64,000 bases of DNA from Gallionella sp. (GTDB taxonomy: Bacteria > Pseudomonadota > Gammaproteobacteria > Burkholderiales > Gallionellaceae): positions 1 through 64,000 of the forward strand of contig JAQTTY010000003.1 of the NCBI GenBank assembly GCA_028710525.1. The letters are read 5' to 3'. The translations under genes were made by a program, and so were the position numbers. The notes beneath the pieces were generated by a model. It saw only the letters and a list, made by a program, of their open reading frames with translations, did no database searches and had not been told where the DNA came from. Below, piece after piece: positions 25,614 through 34,727 of this stretch; position 1 is the stretch's first letter; each line of letters starts with the position of its first letter.

Positions 25614-27734
25614 TTAGTGTGTTTCTGGTGCTACGGCAGCTGCTGCTGAGGGTGCAGGGATCAAAGCCTTCATACTCAGCTTCATCCTGCCTTTGTCATC
25701 CAACTCCAGCAGCTTGACCTTAACGATCTGACCTTCTTTCAGATGATCAGTCACGGCCGCAACGCGCTCGTGTGCGATCTGTGAGATATGCAACAAACCG
25801 TCCTTACCAGGCAGAATGTTGATCAATGCACCAAAGTCCAACAGCTTGACGACTGGGCCTTCGTATACCTTACCCACTTCGACATCAGCAACGATATCAG
25901 CGATACGCTGTTGCGCCAATGCACCACCTTCGCTGCTGACGCAGGAGATGGTGATATTGCCAGCCTCATCGATGTCGATGGTGGTACCGGTCTCTTCAGT
26001 TAGTGCACGAATTACCGCACCGCCCTTGCCGATCACATCACGAATCTTTTCAGGATTGATCTTCATCTTGATCATGCGTGGTGCGAACTCTGACACTTCA
26101 GTACGCGCGCCAGGCATAGCCGCTTTCATCAGACCCAAGATGTGCATACGACCTTCACGTGCCTGCGACAAAGCGGCCTGCATGATCTCGCGAGTGATAC
26201 CGTTGATCTTGATATCCATCTGCAGCGCAGTCACACCAGTTTCGGAACCTGCCACCTTAAAGTCCATATCGCCCAGATGATCTTCGTCACCCAAGATATC
26301 GGTCAACACAGCAAAACGATTACCGTCTTTGATCAGGCCCATGGCGATACCAGCCACATGTGCCTTCAGTGGAACACCCGCATCCAACAGAGATAGGCAA
26401 CCGCCACAGACCGAAGCCATAGAGCTGGAACCATTCGACTCAGTGATCTCGGACACGACGCGTACGGCGTAGCCAAAATCTTCTTCACTAGGCAGCACCG
26501 CAACCAAAGCACGCTTAGCCAAGCGGCCATGGCCGATCTCACGACGCTTAGGCGTACCTACACGTCCAGTCTCACCTGTTGAGTACGGAGGGAAGTTGTA
26601 ATGCAGCATAAAGCGATCACTGCGTTCACCCTGCAGGTCATCCAACTTCTGCGCATCACGCAAACTGCCCAGTGTCGCAACCACGATGGCCTGAGTCTCA
26701 CCGCGAGTGAACAAAGACGAACCATGAGTGCGTGGCAGTACGCCGTTACGGATGGTGATAGGACGCACAGTGCGTGTATCACGGCCGTCGATACGTGGCT
26801 CACCACTAAGTATCTGGCCACGTACGATCTTGGCTTCCAGCGCGCTGAACAGATCGTTCACTTGGTTCTTTTCCGCGTCAGGGAAGTCGATTGCAACTGC
26901 GGCCATCACCTTGCTGTGTATGGCTGAAAGCGCCATGGTACGTTCCTGCTTGGAGCGAATCGCATAAGCTTGTTGCAACTCAGCGTCTGCTAATGCAGAG
27001 ATGCGAGCAATCAAAGGCTCATTCTTAGAAGGTGGGACCCAGTCCCATTCATCCTTACCCACTGCATCTGCCATCTCGTTAATCGCTTGGATCACGACTT
27101 GCATCTGCTCATGACCGAACATCACCGCACCCAGCATGATCTCTTCGGAAAGCTGTTGCGCTTCAGATTCGACCATCTGTACCGCATTATCAGTACCTGC
27201 CACAACCAGATCCAATAGTGAAGTCTTCAATTCTGTCGCAGTCGGGTTGAGCAGATACTTTCCATCCGCATAACCCACACGTGCTGCGCCGATAGGGCCG
27301 TCGAAAGGGATACCAGAGATCGCCAAAGCTGCGGATGCACCAATCATCGCAGGGATATCGGAATCGATCTCGCTGTCGGAGGACATCACTGTAGCGACGA
27401 TCTGCACTTCGTTATAGAAACTCTCGGGGAACAATGGGCGCAGAGGACGATCGATCAGACGTGAAGTCAGGATCTCTTTCTCACTAGGACGCCCTTCACG
27501 CTTGAAGAAGCCACTTGGGATCTTACCTGCAGCATAAGTTTTTTCCATGTAGTCCACAGTCAATGGAAAGAAGTCTTGATCAGGTTTGACATCTTGCTTG
27601 CCCACCACGGAGACCAGCACCGTGGTATCACCCATACTGACCATCACTGCACCAGTAGCTTGGCGAGCAATCTCGCCGGTTTCGATGGTTAGTTGCTGAT
27701 TGCCGTAGGCGAACGTTTTTTTATAGTGACTCAA
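25614..27734 (-). CDS. pnp: Polyribonucleotide nucleotidyltransferase (PNPase)
   Basis: Phosphorolytic 3'-5' exoribonuclease, 706 residues, component of the RNA degradosome. It has two RNase PH-like domains (about 1-210 and 310-540), a KH domain ([18 protein letters not shown]) and a C-terminal S1 domain ([16 protein letters not shown]). The conserved N-terminus MSHYKKTF is read from a TTG codon (27732-27734) with GGGG five bases upstream. It follows rpsO by 100 bp, the conserved rpsO-pnp pair, with a modest terminator between them. Confidence 0.97.
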
Positions 27735-28265: not shown

Positions 28266-28619
28266 TTATGAAAATTTATTCCAAACCATCAACAAAAACA
28301 CCAGTACCGAAGCGATACTCAACAAGAGCACCGCAGCAGCAGCACAATCTTTGGCAATCCTGACAAATTCCGCCTCATCAGGATGCAGTCCATCCAATGC
28401 ATGCTCTAGCGAAGTATTGAATAGCTCTGCTGCAAGTACTAATGTAACCATTATCACAAGCAGCGCTATCCAAACACCTTCGGGCCGCATCCACAAGGCA
28501 ACTCCCAGCACACATAGACCAAAGGCCAACTCAGTCCTAAAACTGGACTCCGTGCTGAAAGCGCAGGAGATTCCATTGCAGGCGTTCGCAAAGCGCTTTG
28601 CAAAAGCCTGATTTTTCAT
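28266..28619 (-). CDS. dgkA: Diacylglycerol kinase DgkA
   Basis: Small integral-membrane kinase of 117 residues from ATG 28617-28619, which phosphorylates diacylglycerol (or undecaprenol in some relatives) to phosphatidate. The family core AAELFNTSLEHALDGL and the following RIAKDCAAAAVLL helix are clear; three transmembrane helices are expected. The chosen ATG overlaps the stop of the fused YjbGH-PAP2 gene (ATGA), so translation is coupled; an ATG four codons upstream is possible. Its position next to a lipid phosphatase suggests a joint role in recycling lipid carriers or diacylglycerol released during polymer export. Confidence 0.93.
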   Translation of the reverse strand: MKNQAFAKRFANACNGISCAFSTESSFRTELAFGLCVLGVALWMRPEGVWIALLVIMVTLVLAAELFNTSLEHALDGLHPDEAEFVRIAKDCAAAAVLLLSIASVLVFLLMVWNKFS

Positions 28620-31600
28620 TGTAGATCCCATGAGGCGCTCATACCTGAAGGCGTAACCGAAATATGAGGAGCGTTGCTATACTTTTGTGAAGTTTTCCAG
28701 AATAAATCACCTATCCCGTAACCCAACAAACTACCAGCCACGGTATCTGATACCCAATGATTCCGACCACCAACGCGCGAAATATTGGTAATCGCTGCCA
28801 AGCCATACAACCAAGGTGCATCGTACTCCTCAGCAAATGGCGTCAGTACAGACCAAGCGACTATGGTGTGTCCAGATGGGAAACTATCCGTATTCTTCTT
28901 AGCTGAACCACCAAACGCATTGAAATTCCGATTGCCCACATTTGCTGCTGGGCGCGACCGACCGATCGCGTACTTCAACCCCATTACAGTTGCAAAAGAA
29001 GCCATTGCTGCCTCCGATGCCGCATAACCTGTTCTTGATAATCTAGGATCATCGCTACCCACCGCAATAAAAGCAGCTCCGGCTGCTTCTAACCATGGCA
29101 AGGCATTCCCTACGCTATTGAAATTTTTCAGCAAGCTACTATTTGCATGGTTCGTCGCAACTCTTTCCGCCTTCTTATCAAGTAGTCCGCTCGTAAATAT
29201 CAGCCCAGCCCCAACACTGGCACTTTCCAGCCAATCGGCCTTCCATGCAATTTTTCCAGCCTTGAGATAATCACGCTGTACTCTGGCAACGGGCCCCGTT
29301 TCCGGCAGTACCACATCCATGAGACTGTCAGTTTGCATCGGAGTTAAATCATTGAACTGAGCCAACGGATGGTTAGTTTCGGCAGCAGGGTTGATAACTC
29401 CAATAGCTGTATAACGACGAAATTCTGCTTCACTCAACTTACCGTCTATATATTCTTTGAGTACATCTAAATTCGGAAAGTCGTAAACAATCGCTGGCTC
29501 AGCATGCAATAGGTAAACAACCCTGATTTTCTGAGTGTTGGGCGGTGCCAGATTCAACATAGTCCGAGCCGCCACCCCCACTGCTTTACTAATTGGATGT
29601 ATGCGTTCATTGGAGAGATTCGCAGCTAAGGTTGTACCGTCAAAACTTAGCTTGATGTTACGAAAATCCAGCCCATACAGACTGGTATGTAGCTTCAAAG
29701 CATAATCTGTCTGCTCAGCAGTAGCCTCACTCGATGTCTGCTGCAATGCAGCGCGACTTGGAATATTAATGATTTGCGACTTGATCCCATTCGGTAGATT
29801 TTCAGGGATTGTATATGCCTCCTCTGGTGGGGCCGGCGCGTAACGCAATGCTCGCTCATCGCGCGCATTTGTTAAATCATACAACTGCACCGAACGCAAA
29901 AGCTTGGCACCTCCATCTCGGAGCAAGGGTTGCCACAATATATTAGCTACACCACCCACAGATTTAGTCAGCATCGCATCAAAGGGAATTTGAAAATAAA
30001 TACCCTTATCAAAACTACCCTCACCAAATTGCTTGGCAGAAACATTAGTCTTGGTGAAATATCCGCCCATTTTCACGCCGTTATCAAATACACGTGACAA
30101 GTCGATTGTTACCCCCTTGTCGCCAGCAAGATATTGCCCAGCACTCAGTTTGGCCAGAACGTTATTCCATCCCGTATATACATACCAAGTTGCATGACCA
30201 GTCAGTACCTGATATTTCTGCAAGGCCAACTTTTGCGAGAAATCACGCTGCTTCACTTCATTTATATCGACTCCTAGAGCATATTTCCCCTCTAATGGTC
30301 TATACATCCATTCTGCCCCGACGCCAGCAAACATAGACTCAATATATCCCCCATACATACTGACATAATGGTTGTCATTCAACTTATCCATATGTGTCAA
30401 TTGGAGGTTGGGCATCGTTAACTTTGAGGTGGTCACATATTTACGTACATTCGTTCTCACTCTAGGTAAGTTGCTGAATCCATTATAGGTAAACTTATTA
30501 TAGTTATCCAAAATGCCTAATTGGGCGCCACCTTGAAGCCAAGTGTTTTCGCTTAGACTGTACTTTGCATGTGCGGCTGGTGCTAGCTGAAAAAGCATGA
30601 AGCCATTTGGCCCCCCTAGGCTGTAGCTAAAATTCATACCCACGTCGGACTCAAATTGGGGCTTTGGATTACGGAACAGTGCTTGATTTGTAGCGGGAAT
30701 CTGCGGTGGCATAGCAAGCACCTCAGCAGTGAATTGACTAGGCGCAAGAAATTGCGTTCGTGCATTGACCCATGTGCTGCGGTCTACCACATGTTGAGCT
30801 ACAGAAATGCCGTGTTGTTTATAGATGAATCTGAACTGATTGATAAAAGAAGGTGCATCTCGATGCAGTACCGCAACGGCCCTATCCAGATAATCTTTCC
30901 AATAGACGACATCCGCATCATCGATAGTGACAAATAACTTATCTCCCTTCTGAACGATACTGTTCACATGCCAGTTAGTCTGACTCTCAAGGGTAAGGCC
31001 TGTCACTTGCCAATTAGGTGCAAGCGTGGGCCGTTCGGCAACAACTCGAATTCGCGGAACGTCATCTAATTTTGGTACCGACAAGTTGCTTAACGAAGAA
31101 TGCATGGTCATACCCACCATTGCAGTATTACCACGCTCTATTCCCGCCGAGATATCGAATGAGTTGGAAGCACGATAAACAAGCCCAAAATTCCAAGGAG
31201 ATTTAAGCGGAAAATTGTTAGCATCTGGCTCATGCTTATAATTATTGCCATTAAACTCAAGCTTCAGGGTCAAGGGGTCCCAGGCTGTCTGGTATTGCAA
31301 GCCACCAAACCAAGCAGCCCGACCTCTGAAATAATTGCTCATAGCGAAATTCCCCCCCTGCCCCACAGCCACCTGAGGTCGGGTATTGAACCTAGGCAAT
31401 AGGTAGCCAAATGGATTATTTACATTCGCCCTAGATCCTAGGTATCCCCAACCTAAACCTAGATCCCAGTCAAAATCCCCAGTTCGTTTATTTGCAACAA
31501 AATATTCCCCAGAAAATAGTCCTGTTCCAGCCAAATCACGAATGCCCATAGCGAGTTCAGGTTTATACGCAGACTCGTCCATTAAGTTAAATTTGATGTC

Positions 31601-32614
31601 TATACTTTTATCCTTGTTAGCCTGACCACCAAAGACGCCATTGCCATAAAGTCGATTACTCACACTGGTATATCTAAATTCTGCCTCCATCCATGCAAAA
31701 GGTTGAAATCCAATATTGTAATAAGTATAGGGGTAGGAGCGAGACAAATTGAAAGCAAAGTCACCTTCCTTGCGCATGCGGGCTGTAGGCGTTTGCAACA
31801 AACCGACCTCCCCCCAGTCATTGGCACTTACGAATGAATCCCTAGGAGCAGGTAGCGGATAATTTGGGGCCGGATTTATAGTGTCCACACTGAAGTCTGG
31901 AATTTTAGATAACGCCGGCGCTCCCAATTCAACAATGCTGCTAGCACCGTAGTTATCAGGTGCAGGACCTTGTGTAGCCAGAAAAGTAATTAGTTGCTTG
32001 GATAATGTATCCGGCCAGTCTCGCGAAGACGACAATATCCAAGCACCGGGAGCTGGCTCTGATTGATGTTCGCCGTTCCAATATGAAACGCCATAGCGAG
32101 CAGTCTTACCATCTGCTTGAGCAACATAAGCATAATCAACGTGTCCTGAAGCTTGACATTGGGCGATGTAATCGCGAGAAAATAGCCCAGCGGAATGAGT
32201 AACCTGACAAATTTTCCCCTCTGCAGTTACAACAGTGACGCTTTTAGGGCGCGCCGGCAAAATAACTTTGTCTTTGGCAGAGAGAATTGGATCGCTTTCT
32301 GGATGTGCGATTAACCAATCCTGATCTGCGGACGGCACTGGCACTCGCCCAGTAATAGGCAAGCCTTCTAACCAGTCGCTCAATCTAAGAGTAGCAGCAC
32401 GATCGGCCTCACTTAATGAATTTAGGTTTTCTAGTAGATGTCTACGCAGCTCGCGCTGCATGTTTTTTTCCGACTCTACCTCCCACATCAAACCCAATGG
32501 ATAAGAGCTTTCTACAACCTCTTGGTTAAATAGCCAATCGCTTAGACGCTCAGCTTGAGCTGATGCCGCTGATAGTAGGCAGACCATCAAAATTAGTATC
32601 TTTATTTGCATCAC
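28616..32614 (-). CDS. GfcC (YjbG)-YjbH-PAP2 fusion, exopolysaccharide outer-membrane protein
   Basis: A 1332-residue exported protein (signal peptide 1-21) that joins three units usually encoded separately or absent. Residues about 22-215 match GfcC/YjbG periplasmic capsule proteins (LPITGRVPV at 85-93, a beta-grasp-like block ending PAPGAWI near 187-193). Residues about 240-1100 are the YjbH/GfcD outer-membrane domain, rich in alternating aromatic beta strands. Residues about 1150-1310 form a complete PAP2 phosphatase: K-x6-RP (Lys1214, Arg1221), PSGH (1246-1249) and SR-x5-H-x3-D (Ser1279, His1286, Asp1290). The ATG overlaps the yjbF stop, and the stop overlaps dgkA. The phosphatase probably acts in the periplasm on a lipid phosphate; the substrate is unknown. 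Confidence 0.88.
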   Translation of the reverse strand: MMQIKILILMVCLLSAASAQAERLSDWLFNQEVVESSYPLGLMWEVESEKNMQRELRRHLLENLNSLSEADRAATLRLSDWLEGLPITGRVPVPSADQDWLIAHPESDPILSAKDKVILPARPKSVTVVTAEGKICQVTHSAGLFSRDYIAQCQASGHVDYAYVAQADGKTARYGVSYWNGEHQSEPAPGAWILSSSRDWPDTLSKQLITFLATQGPAPDNYGASSIVELGAPALSKIPDFSVDTINPAPNYPLPAPRDSFVSANDWGEVGLLQTPTARMRKEGDFAFNLSRSYPYTYYNIGFQPFAWMEAEFRYTSVSNRLYGNGVFGGQANKDKSIDIKFNLMDESAYKPELAMGIRDLAGTGLFSGEYFVANKRTGDFDWDLGLGWGYLGSRANVNNPFGYLLPRFNTRPQVAVGQGGNFAMSNYFRGRAAWFGGLQYQTAWDPLTLKLEFNGNNYKHEPDANNFPLKSPWNFGLVYRASNSFDISAGIERGNTAMVGMTMHSSLSNLSVPKLDDVPRIRVVAERPTLAPNWQVTGLTLESQTNWHVNSIVQKGDKLFVTIDDADVVYWKDYLDRAVAVLHRDAPSFINQFRFIYKQHGISVAQHVVDRSTWVNARTQFLAPSQFTAEVLAMPPQIPATNQALFRNPKPQFESDVGMNFSYSLGGPNGFMLFQLAPAAHAKYSLSENTWLQGGAQLGILDNYNKFTYNGFSNLPRVRTNVRKYVTTSKLTMPNLQLTHMDKLNDNHYVSMYGGYIESMFAGVGAEWMYRPLEGKYALGVDINEVKQRDFSQKLALQKYQVLTGHATWYVYTGWNNVLAKLSAGQYLAGDKGVTIDLSRVFDNGVKMGGYFTKTNVSAKQFGEGSFDKGIYFQIPFDAMLTKSVGGVANILWQPLLRDGGAKLLRSVQLYDLTNARDERALRYAPAPPEEAYTIPENLPNGIKSQIINIPSRAALQQTSSEATAEQTDYALKLHTSLYGLDFRNIKLSFDGTTLAANLSNERIHPISKAVGVAARTMLNLAPPNTQKIRVVYLLHAEPAIVYDFPNLDVLKEYIDGKLSEAEFRRYTAIGVINPAAETNHPLAQFNDLTPMQTDSLMDVVLPETGPVARVQRDYLKAGKIAWKADWLESASVGAGLIFTSGLLDKKAERVATNHANSSLLKNFNSVGNALPWLEAAGAAFIAVGSDDPRLSRTGYAASEAAMASFATVMGLKYAIGRSRPAANVGNRNFNAFGGSAKKNTDSFPSGHTIVAWSVLTPFAEEYDAPWLYGLAAITNISRVGGRNHWVSDTVAGSLLGYGIGDLFWKTSQKYSNAPHISVTPSGMSASWDLQ

Positions 32615-33255
32615 TGTAGATTTTCAGACCATCTTTGCCAGCTGAAACAAAATGTCGAAGAAAGGCATGTTTCCCCATAAACGACAGTTTGACTGCTTGT
32701 GTCATAAGCATATTTAGCAATCGGGAGTTGATTTGTTTTAGAAAGGTCACTCTCTTCAAACCAGATTAGTTTTTCAGGGGAAAGTCCGGCCAGATGGCTG
32801 TCAATTGGGGTTGAAATTCTACTTAATGCCAATTCGTCCTGTATGCCATAGTGATAACCTGGCTTCAAATCACGCTTACGCTTCCATCGGTACGTCGCGT
32901 TTCCTTTAACGAGAGCAGACCATGAGGGAGATTCTGGTATGACTACATTGCGCCACTCAGTTAACAAACCAATAGCACCCCCAAGACGTCCATCCTTAAA
33001 ACGCAAAGTTTCTCCGCTTGAGCCATACCAAACCTCGATACCATTCACTTTATATGCTTTAAGTAAATAGAACACTCTACCTTCACTGTTAATCCGCAGA
33101 TACTCGAATCTAGGATCAAAGTGATGGGCAGGTTGCTGTTGATTTAATTCAAATGCGCGCCCCATCATCTTGATAGATACTTTCTGAGAATCTGAGCAGG
33201 CAGAAAGTAATAGAATTGCCAAGACAATCCAAGTATTAATAAGATTCGTACGCAT
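32611..33255 (-). CDS. yjbF: YjbF/GfcB-family lipoprotein
   Basis: A 214-residue lipoprotein with lipobox LLSAC near residues 17-21, of the YjbF/GfcB group found in yjbEFGH exopolysaccharide and group 4 capsule operons. Typical features are GRAFELNQ after the lipidation site, the long beta-strand rich body (VNGIEVWYGSSGETLRFKDG) and WRNVVIP. The start is ATG 33253-33255; the codon before it is TTG. The stop overlaps the fusion gene start (ATGA). A terminator lies 27 bp upstream of the start, so its expression depends on read-through from yjbE or on another promoter. Confidence 0.85.
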   Translation of the reverse strand: MRTNLINTWIVLAILLLSACSDSQKVSIKMMGRAFELNQQQPAHHFDPRFEYLRINSEGRVFYLLKAYKVNGIEVWYGSSGETLRFKDGRLGGAIGLLTEWRNVVIPESPSWSALVKGNATYRWKRKRDLKPGYHYGIQDELALSRISTPIDSHLAGLSPEKLIWFEESDLSKTNQLPIAKYAYDTSSQTVVYGETCLSSTFCFSWQRWSENLQ

Positions 33256-33281
33256 CAACTAAGGTAGTTTGAAATGACATG

Positions 33282-33343: not shown

Positions 33344-33589
33344 CTATATAGTTCCAACCGTTCCAACAGTAACAGTGCTACCAGAACCATTACCTTGAGT
33401 AATAGTAATCACACCGGCAACCACAGCGACTCCGTAGGCAACGCCTCCGACTGTAAATCCAGTTACATTAGCATTTGCTTTTACTGCTTTTTGAGCCTCA
33501 GCTTTTACTTCCGCTGTAGTAGGCTCTGCAGCGCAAGCTACAGATGAAACAAACAACATAGAACACGCCAACAATGCTAACTTCTTCAT
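33344..33589 (-). CDS. yjbE: YjbE-like small secreted protein
   Basis: An 81-residue exported protein with a signal peptide (cleavage after SSVACA, near residue 20) and a mature part made of Ala/Lys helices followed by a Val/Gly/Thr-rich tail (TVGGVAYGVAVVAG, then GNGSGSTVTVGTVGT). Length and composition match the YjbE protein that opens yjbEFGH operons, though such low-complexity sequences diverge fast and the call rests on position as much as on sequence. It is read from a strong promoter at 33647-33675 and cut off by a terminator, suggesting much higher expression than the rest of the operon. Confidence 0.7.
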   Translation of the reverse strand: MKKLALLACSMLFVSSVACAAEPTTAEVKAEAQKAVKANANVTGFTVGGVAYGVAVVAGVITITQGNGSGSTVTVGTVGTI

Positions 33590-33646: not shown

Positions 33647-33675
33647 ACAATAAACAATAAAGGAATTCATGTCAA
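33647..33675 (-). promoter_or_regulatory. Promoter of the yjb operon
   Basis: A consensus -35 TTGACA (33670-33675) and a -10 TATTGT (33647-33652) are separated by 17 bp on the minus strand, about 55 bp before the yjbE start. It is one of the best vegetative promoter matches in the window and lies between truB and yjbE. Confidence 0.68.
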
Positions 33676-33776: not shown

Positions 33777-34727
33777 TCAGTCAAGTAGCACGCTTGAAAC
33801 AGAAACTAACTCAGCTTTTTGGGTCGCTGCTTGTTTTGCAATACCAGATAACAAGCGATCAGGTGCGAGACGGCGGCCTTGTAGCAGCCCCACCCCGACA
33901 AAACCTTGTGGCCCATACAGGCTCACCTTTCCATCCGGCAAGCCGGTATCCAAACCCAGACGTTGCCCCTGTGCCATACGTTTGACTTGAACTTCATCCA
34001 GTTGCAACTTAGGCATATCCGGCATTAGGCTGTCAATCGGCATCAGGCAAGCCATAAGCTCATCCTCGCTCATAGCCGCAAGCTGTTCCAAGGTATAGCC
34101 GCATTGCAAATCAAGATGGGCAATAGCAGTACGACGTAAGGCGGTGAGATGCCCACCGCAACCCAGTGCCGCACCGATATCTTCACCCAGCGTGCGGATA
34201 TAAGTTCCTTTGCTACACCTCACGCTAAGGTCTAACTTATTATCGGAATAACGATGCAACACCAGCTCATGGATGATGATGTCGCGTAATTCACGCTCTA
34301 TAGTGACACCGTCACGGATGTACTCATAAAGAGGTTTGCCCTCATGTTTGAGCGCGCTGTACATGGGTGGCAGTTGCTGTGACGCTCCGCGAAATCTTTC
34401 CAGTACAGCTTCTACCTGTTCCAACGTAGCTGTCACATCATGCGAGGACAGCACCTCGCCCTCCGCATCACCGGTAGCGGTGGTTTGCCCAAGTCGCACC
34501 GTGGTGCGATAGGTCTTATCCGCATCTAACAAAGTATTAGAAAATTTGGTCGCTTCACCAAAGCAGATGGGCAACAAGCCGGTAGCCAGAGGATCCAAAG
34601 TGCCGGTATGCCCGGCCTTTTCGGCCTGAAACAAACGCCGCACTTTTTGCAATGCAGTGTTTGAACTCAATTCCAGTGGTTTATCAAACAATAAAACGCC
34701 GTCTAAAGGACGGAAGGTACGCGCCAT
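33777..34727 (-). CDS. truB: tRNA pseudouridine(55) synthase TruB
   Basis: Makes pseudouridine 55 in the T-loop of tRNAs. The 316-residue protein has the catalytic Asp45 in GTLDPLATGLLP, the FDKP motif near 14-17, and the C-terminal PUA-like tail. It starts 5 bp after rbfA and ends the rimP-nusA-infB-rbfA-truB block. Usually rpsO follows; here the yjb cassette intervenes. No intrinsic terminator is visible after it. Confidence 0.97.
   Translation of the reverse strand: MARTFRPLDGVLLFDKPLELSSNTALQKVRRLFQAEKAGHTGTLDPLATGLLPICFGEATKFSNTLLDADKTYRTTVRLGQTTATGDAEGEVLSSHDVTATLEQVEAVLERFRGASQQLPPMYSALKHEGKPLYEYIRDGVTIERELRDIIIHELVLHRYSDNKLDLSVRCSKGTYIRTLGEDIGAALGCGGHLTALRRTAIAHLDLQCGYTLEQLAAMSEDELMACLMPIDSLMPDMPKLQLDEVQVKRMAQGQRLGLDTGLPDGKVSLYGPQGFVGVGLLQGRRLAPDRLLSGIAKQAATQKAELVSVSSVLLD

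Follow-up and report, generated by a model that had tools for sequence, protein, structure and literature searches.

The window analyzed here is a 64,000-nucleotide stretch of DNA from Gallionella sp. (GenBank assembly GCA_028710525.1, contig JAQTTY010000003.1, positions 1 to 64,000 of the forward strand). On its minus strand, positions 28616..32614 encode a single protein of 1332 amino acids (aa), in which a GfcC-like domain, a YjbH/GfcD domain and a PAP2 phosphatase domain are joined. The frame contains no internal stop, and its start codon is either GTG at 32614 or ATG at 32611. From the N-terminus, the protein consists of a putative signal peptide (residues 1 to ~21, 32552..32614), a GfcC-like domain (residues ~22-255, 31850..32551), a YjbH/GfcD domain predicted to comprise barrel 1, a periplasmic middle domain and barrel 2 (residues 263-916, 29867..31828), a second middle-like domain (residues ~965-1075, 29390..29722), and a PAP2 domain with a short C-terminal hairpin (residues 1122-1332, 28619..29251), all on the minus strand. 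By inspection of the translation, the N-terminus is signal-peptide-like and reads as cleavable. A first-pass annotation of the same DNA had already proposed one 1332-residue polypeptide with GfcC-like, YjbH and PAP2 parts, and the open frame, the Pfam matches and a GfcC family profile agree with it; the second middle-like domain was missing from its domain list.

In the Pfam searches, YjbH (PF06082) covers residues 263-916 with 753.6 bits (E=3.3e-226), matching positions 1-657 of the 658 in the profile and passing the curated cut-off, and PAP2 (PF01569) matches residues 1204-1311 with 53.4 bits for a cut-off of 27.2 (E=2.9e-14). The match to GfcC_C (PF06251) at residues 147-201 is marginal (20.2 bits, cut-off 20), and GfcC_N (PF20616) scores 14.6 bits, under its cut-off of 22.1. 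Because the Pfam call for GfcC was marginal, a family profile of 23 members (the window protein and those of 22 named loci) was used. Its sole match in the PDB up to E=1, over profile positions 41-196, is 3p42 (E=4.5e-13), which is the structure of GfcC (PMC9603273). Searching the domains one by one with hidden Markov models, as had been suggested for this protein, thus leaves YjbH and PAP2 clear and settles GfcC through 3p42. No NCBIfam model matched the fusion above a cut-off. The AlphaFold model of the whole fusion has a predicted local distance difference test score (pLDDT) of 77.7 and a predicted template-modeling score (pTM) of 0.64; the order of its strands and helices, taken as order only, would be in keeping with an alpha/beta middle domain in the periplasm and a barrel on either side of it. 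A fold search with the whole chain was set aside, as it returned mostly unrelated barrels with poor superposition, with 5jki appearing for the PAP2 part.

The active-site residues of PAP2 are intact. Motif 1 (K1214-x6-R1221-P1222, 28949..28975), motif 2 (PSGH 1246-1249, 28868..28879) and motif 3 (S1279-R1280-x5-H1286-x3-D1290, 28745..28780), all on the minus strand, lie exactly at the residues given in the first-pass annotation. All eight catalytic positions checked are kept in 58 of 60 aligned PAP2 domains, the exceptions being L085, without the motif-2 histidine, and L093, with E at the motif-1 lysine. This count covers the window and 59 of 80 named loci, with arginine counted as the motif-1 lysine in two rows; L101, L104, L110, L113-L116 and L123-L125 were omitted by hand, together with 11 loci whose PAP2 match is shorter than 150 residues, mostly distant stand-alone proteins. 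The model of the PAP2 domain (pLDDT 90.4, pTM 0.85) finds the membrane phosphatidylglycerolphosphate phosphatase 5jki at Foldseek rank 1, followed by acid phosphatases of the PhoN/PhoC type. The assignment of the domain as a PAP2 enzyme is well founded in both residues and fold.

The second middle-like domain is an alpha/beta domain between the barrel and PAP2 that resembles the YjbH middle domain. The Pfam YjbH model hits it as a second match (profile positions 253-346, E=5.2e-4), the middle-domain profile of YjbH proteins lacking GfcC matches it with 76 bits, with blastp likeness as well, and its helix/strand order in the AlphaFold model is similar to that of the middle domain. Compared with each other, the two middle domains of the protein gave no BLASTP match, and hhalign of their small profiles gave a probability of only 10%. 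Since it does not directly match the protein's own middle domain, the second one was more likely acquired from the GfcC-less YjbH subfamily than copied in place.

Some match to the fusion was found in 23 of 61 genomes, including its own. The GfcC-YjbH-PAP2 architecture occurs in G021, G009 and G004, YjbH-PAP2 without GfcC in G047, G023 and G057, whereas G039 has GfcC-YjbH lacking PAP2, and only YjbH is present in G007, G013 and G006. The last of these also has a PAP2 tail at a contig start, followed by a separate Wzi gene. A scan of genome contigs with the single fusion protein found no relative. From a scan with the PAP2 alignment, the best 80 of 272 loci were kept and their architectures were sorted with local profiles. 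Among these 80 loci, the order GfcC-YjbH-middle-PAP2 of the window recurs. Additionally, GfcC-YjbH-PAP2 without the extra middle domain was found (e.g., Thauera aminoaromatica S2), as were YjbH-PAP2 without GfcC (Janthinobacterium, Massilia, Duganella, Vogesella, Chitinimonas, and Crenobacter), PAP2 alone, and PAP2 of the same subfamily on the capsule protein Wzi, the latter in three loci (L089, L092, and L098). GfcC-YjbH fusions without PAP2 were met five times (L036, L145, L146, L147, and L148). One of these (L148) belongs to genome G661, which carries a stand-alone PAP2 of the same subfamily beside a MORN protein on another contig (L153).

Among 399 genomes of the same order, at least 45 have YjbH and at least 39 have the PAP2 subfamily, each at E<=1e-20. 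After YjbH and PAP2 matches were joined by hand through contig and open-frame length, PAP2 was found in the YjbH frame in 32 of the 45 YjbH genomes, including the single-contig genomes G618 and G648, in both of which a second analysis showed the fusion again. PAP2 is not in the YjbH frame in the other 13 (G039, G456, G477, G500, G507, G554, G637, G661, G669, G747, G748, G751, and G784); in G477 and G669, what matched YjbH is a fragment close to the end of a contig. In 369 class-wide genomes, the fusion was seen only in the window's own genome, and five others with a match at E<=1e-20 have frames of 287-421 aa. These counts are lower bounds, since few candidates were scored per genome: at most seven in the class-wide scan and in the order-wide PAP2 scan, and at most two in the order-wide YjbH scan. 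In a plasmid search, no record covered 80% of the query, and the best matches, from Paraburkholderia, span residues 12-941, i.e., the protein without PAP2.

In a tree of 57 PAP2 domains (25 from GfcC-YjbH-PAP2, 22 from YjbH-PAP2, three from Wzi-PAP2, and seven of the 29 stand-alone rows), a single clade was rejected by the approximately unbiased (AU) test for GfcC-YjbH-PAP2 (p-AU 0.0001) and for Wzi-PAP2 (p-AU 0.0004), whose rows fall in two separate places, and was not rejected for YjbH-PAP2 (p-AU 0.057); some branches are long, and the topology test shares the weakness of the model there. In a tree of 66 YjbH proteins (51 with PAP2 and 15 without), the distribution of PAP2 requires 10 gains or losses, at least seven of them on well-supported branches. 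An earlier PAP2 tree of 81 rows showed the same mixing with two doubtful labels: L055, cut by a contig end, and L069, in which the YjbH part is not one open frame, had been labeled YjbH-PAP2, and both were therefore dropped from the 57-domain tree. Excluded from the 81 rows were L048, L054, L058, L076, L085, L101, and L104 (fragments or repeats of genes from the window's genome), L067 and L081 (which share their contigs with L035 and L038), and PAP2 matches shorter than 140 residues. PAP2 seems to be a module that was joined, lost or exchanged between capsule-related outer-membrane proteins several times, and the Wzi-PAP2 fusions apparently have two origins.

The fusion gene lies in a putative gfc-like operon on the minus strand, flanked by pnp (25614-27734) and truB (33777-34727), both identified by inspection. 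Upstream of the fusion and overlapping its start is a gene for a YjbF/GfcB-like lipoprotein (32611..33258; PF11102, 26.6 bits, cut-off 25.9) with the lipobox LLSAC, assigned by inspection. It is preceded by a small open reading frame (ORF) of 81 aa (33344..33589) with a signal-peptide-like start and a composition rich in Val, Gly, and Thr, which is GfcA/YjbE-like by position and composition. A scan with YjbE (PF11106) of six such small ORFs, from the window and five relatives, matched only that of L134, with 20.0 bits, under the cut-off of 27.9. Downstream, a DgkA-type lipid kinase is encoded at 28266..28619 (PF01219, E=1.6e-26 for the frame from 28631; PDB match to the diacylglycerol kinase 3ze3, E=3.3e-11); when ATG 28619 is taken as its start codon, it shares the sequence ATGA with the TGA stop of the fusion. 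The predicted order may correspond to that of gfcABCD/yjbEFGH, with B and the fused C-D identified by profile and A by position and composition, without a profile match, followed by an overlapping dgkA. The gfcA-like ORF, yjbF and dgkA had all escaped the first-pass annotation. A sigma-70-like promoter match upstream of the operon (TTGACA-17-TATTGT, 33647..33675, minus strand) is no better than chance, as 10 promoter-like sites were found in the region and 12.0 are expected in shuffles.

The layout of group 4 capsule loci, with gfcE/OPX, etp and etk beside gfcABCD, was not found at the window locus. The genome's single OPX match lies on a different contig (C23), adjoining a Wzz gene, with MurJ-family and EpsG-family genes nearby. 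Beside these Wzz and OPX genes are genes for an adenylylsulfate (APS) kinase and for a protein of the inositol-monophosphatase family (L139:6296-7737); the polysaccharide is perhaps sulfated. In total, the genome has three PAP2 matches and two DgkA-family matches. One stand-alone PAP2 with a signal-peptide-like start is encoded on contig C1 of this genome, G000 (L044:4954-5739), and by inspection its neighbors are similar to those at L045-L047 in the same genus.

Neighboring genes were compared for 52 fusion or fusion-like loci, many on short contigs, with clusters named from one Pfam-scanned member or from a window gene. Within these stretches, YjbF was found at 15 loci, the OPX cluster at 16, the Wzz cluster at 16, a MORN-repeat protein at eight, and DgkA at five. 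These neighbors support a linkage to polysaccharide-export genes. In a Sideroxydans metagenome-assembled genome (L077:6071-9481), a stand-alone PAP2 with a signal-peptide-like start, DgkA and Wzi are encoded on one strand, with genes of the OPX and Wzz clusters further on. The MORN-repeat protein was observed beside or near YjbH-PAP2 or PAP2 at L057, L058, L061, L066, L076, L081, L100, and L134, and also at L153 and L155.

A crude rule for signal-peptide-like starts fires on 32 of 38 stand-alone PAP2 relatives, on 23 of 36 neighbors from the NDP-sugar-enzyme cluster, and on none of nine in two other clusters. As the rule also fires on neighbors and does not discriminate, these starts were read by eye, and most stand-alone PAP2 relatives seem to have a signal peptide at their start. 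The C-termini of five stand-alone proteins (L106, L108, L109, L111, and L122, from Acidobacteriota, Calditrichota and an unclassified bacterium) end in F, which we take to be comparable to the terminal F of outer-membrane strands.

The domain make-up, the intact active-site residues, their conservation and the predicted operon all derive from sequence and comparison. Together they suggest a GfcD/YjbH-type exporter of polysaccharides in the outer membrane, into which GfcC is built N-terminally and PAP2 C-terminally; PAP2 would dephosphorylate the carrier or anchor lipid of the polymer on the periplasmic side. With its chemistry inferred, this reading, the likeliest of those considered, is tentative and stands slightly below an even chance. 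The predicted place of PAP2 is next to barrel 2, on the periplasmic face of the outer membrane; in models of GfcD, this barrel is laterally gated. The polymer would arrive with a terminal lipid phosphate or pyrophosphate, handed on by YjbF and the GfcC domain, and PAP2 would dephosphorylate either this lipid or the one that remains once the polymer has been released. At the inner membrane, the product of the overlapping dgkA would then put a phosphate back on the alcohol so formed (diacylglycerol or undecaprenol).

The position of PAP2 behind the second barrel, and its presence on Wzi, suggest that a lipid phosphate of the carrier or anchor is processed there. Further points in favor of a carrier- or anchor-lipid phosphatase are the domain identities, the catalytic residues, the in-frame recurrence, the gene order in L077, and the OPX and Wzz neighbors. 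In hydropathy plots, no Kyte-Doolittle segment (19 residues, >=1.6) was found in 25 of 25 GfcC-YjbH-PAP2 rows, as opposed to two in an inner-membrane PAP2 encoded in the window's genome; the means are 0.33 segments per row for YjbH-PAP2 and 0.38 for stand-alone proteins. Published work on GfcD and its partners is also favorable. The published model of GfcD has one barrel of 12 strands and a second of 13, and in simulations the tails of lipid A leave through a lateral gate in the second (PMC11494523). GfcB, which has a LolA-like fold, GfcC and GfcD bind one another (PMC8592465).

Several points weigh against this reading. On the Goldman-Engelman-Steitz (GES) scale (segments >=1.0), the means are 2.56 for GfcC-YjbH-PAP2 and 3.33 for YjbH-PAP2 as opposed to 3 in the inner-membrane yardstick; the fusion groups as a whole (2.56-4.00) are not distinct from it, and the window's own domain has one segment. 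The hydropathy comparison with inner-membrane enzymes of the PgpB type is therefore mixed evidence. PAP2 enzymes act on phosphomonoesters or pyrophosphates, and a polymer-linked diester would need prior cutting. The fold leaves the substrate class undecided, with membrane lipid phosphatases and soluble class A acid phosphatases matching nearly equally. As 13 of the 45 YjbH genomes lack an in-frame PAP2, the domain is dispensable for YjbH function in general. Finally, DgkA was rejected as a general partner because its linkage is sporadic: apart from the window, it lies downstream on the same strand only in L077 and L055.

A more far-reaching reading, which we regard as rather unlikely, is a self-contained machine for both export and anchoring, with PAP2 processing or switching the lipid end of a capsule polymer at the outer membrane. 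A single polypeptide would receive the polymer on its lipid, convert the lipid phosphate and place the polymer laterally in the outer leaflet, the module having been placed independently on YjbH and Wzi barrels. Also unlikely is anchor switching, in which PAP2 would act as a phosphotransferase: the polymer, or the phosphate at its end, would be taken off undecaprenyl pyrophosphate and passed to a lipid of the outer membrane, giving a lipid-anchored product that exits through the lateral gate. Catalysis by PAP2 enzymes runs through a phospho-histidine intermediate, and LpxT and Aur1 are examples that transfer rather than hydrolyze; a complex of Aur1 appears among the weak fold matches of the window domain (Foldseek E=0.089). 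The occurrence of PAP2 on both YjbH and Wzi, two outer-membrane capsule proteins, and the adjoining DgkA, which fits a cycle making or using diacylglycerol, are consistent with such a transfer. However, the sequence does not tell a transferase from a hydrolase, and no acceptor is known.

Remodeling of the outer membrane is improbable as the role of PAP2, which would then dephosphorylate lipid A or phosphatidate around the exporter and alter charge or curvature. Lipid A resides in the outer leaflet, whereas the active site should face the periplasm, and a bulk lipid modification would be oddly tied to one exporter, although LpxE of Aquifex, at Foldseek rank 16, has the highest target-normalized TM-score (0.62) of the 50 matches listed, and enzymes acting on lipid head groups have been described on outer-membrane barrels (lipocones, PMC12419801). 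It is more doubtful still that PAP2 is a soluble-type acid phosphatase carried by the exporter and acting on sugars of the polymer or on small molecules: Foldseek matches of the PhoN/PhoC type reach a probability of 1.00 and phmmer gives weak matches to acid phosphatases (E 0.27-0.5), but the best Foldseek match is the membrane enzyme 5jki. The idea that separate genes were fused by an assembly or frameshift artefact, for which no supporting point was found, is almost certainly wrong, since the architecture recurs in independent assemblies, both among the 32 of 399 same-order genomes with their two single-contig cases and among Janthinobacterium, Massilia, Duganella, Vogesella, Chitinimonas, and Thauera isolates.

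The lateral-gate model of GfcD is computational. PAP2 belongs to a superfamily with many lipid phosphatases, and its repeated presence on GfcD/YjbH exporters and on Wzi points to a lipid phosphate at the export step and raises the possibility that some sugar coats remain tied to a lipid on leaving the cell. The fusion offers a natural in-cis enzyme for study and, if the proposed role is true, an instance of lipid-phosphate chemistry taking place at the outer membrane.

Among known systems, the double-barrel nature of GfcD and YjbH has already been published (PMC9603273). E. coli GfcD/YjbH resembles the window protein in its full-length PF06082 profile and presumably also in the two barrels and periplasmic middle domain of the published models and in its operon partners GfcA/B/C. 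It ends in a short plug (PMC11494523), whereas the window protein has GfcC in front and the second middle-like domain and PAP2 behind. OtnG of Burkholderia thailandensis (995 aa) is described as resembling a GfcC-GfcD fusion (PMC8592465), with the same order as in the window protein; no PAP2 is reported for it, and 995 aa would leave hardly any room for one. OtnG and the five PAP2-less GfcC-YjbH fusions contradict the statement of the first-pass annotation that GfcC-like and YjbH-like proteins are separate in characterized loci. Neither YjbH-PAP2 nor Wzi-PAP2 was found in the open-licence literature in PMC, which was covered in part, subscription papers and domain-architecture databases being outside the scope. 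Within the literature searched, the GfcC-YjbH half is thus already published, and PAP2 on YjbH is the unreported part. PAP2 and dgkA genes also occur beside mcr genes, where compensation in phospholipid metabolism has been proposed (PMC7559476); the pair in the window may be likened to these by analogy only. Lipocone enzymes acting on lipid head groups have been proposed to be fused to outer-membrane barrels, as in YfiM families (PMC12419801). These fusions share with the window protein a predicted lipid-head-group enzyme on an outer-membrane barrel but involve another enzyme superfamily and other barrels. Wzi (PF14052), which bears the same PAP2 subfamily in its three fusion loci, belongs to a Pfam family different from YjbH and is absent from the window protein. 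PgpB, LpxE, PhoN, and PhoC share fold and catalytic residues with the window PAP2, which, unlike these phosphatases, sits on an outer-membrane export protein with a signal-peptide-like start.

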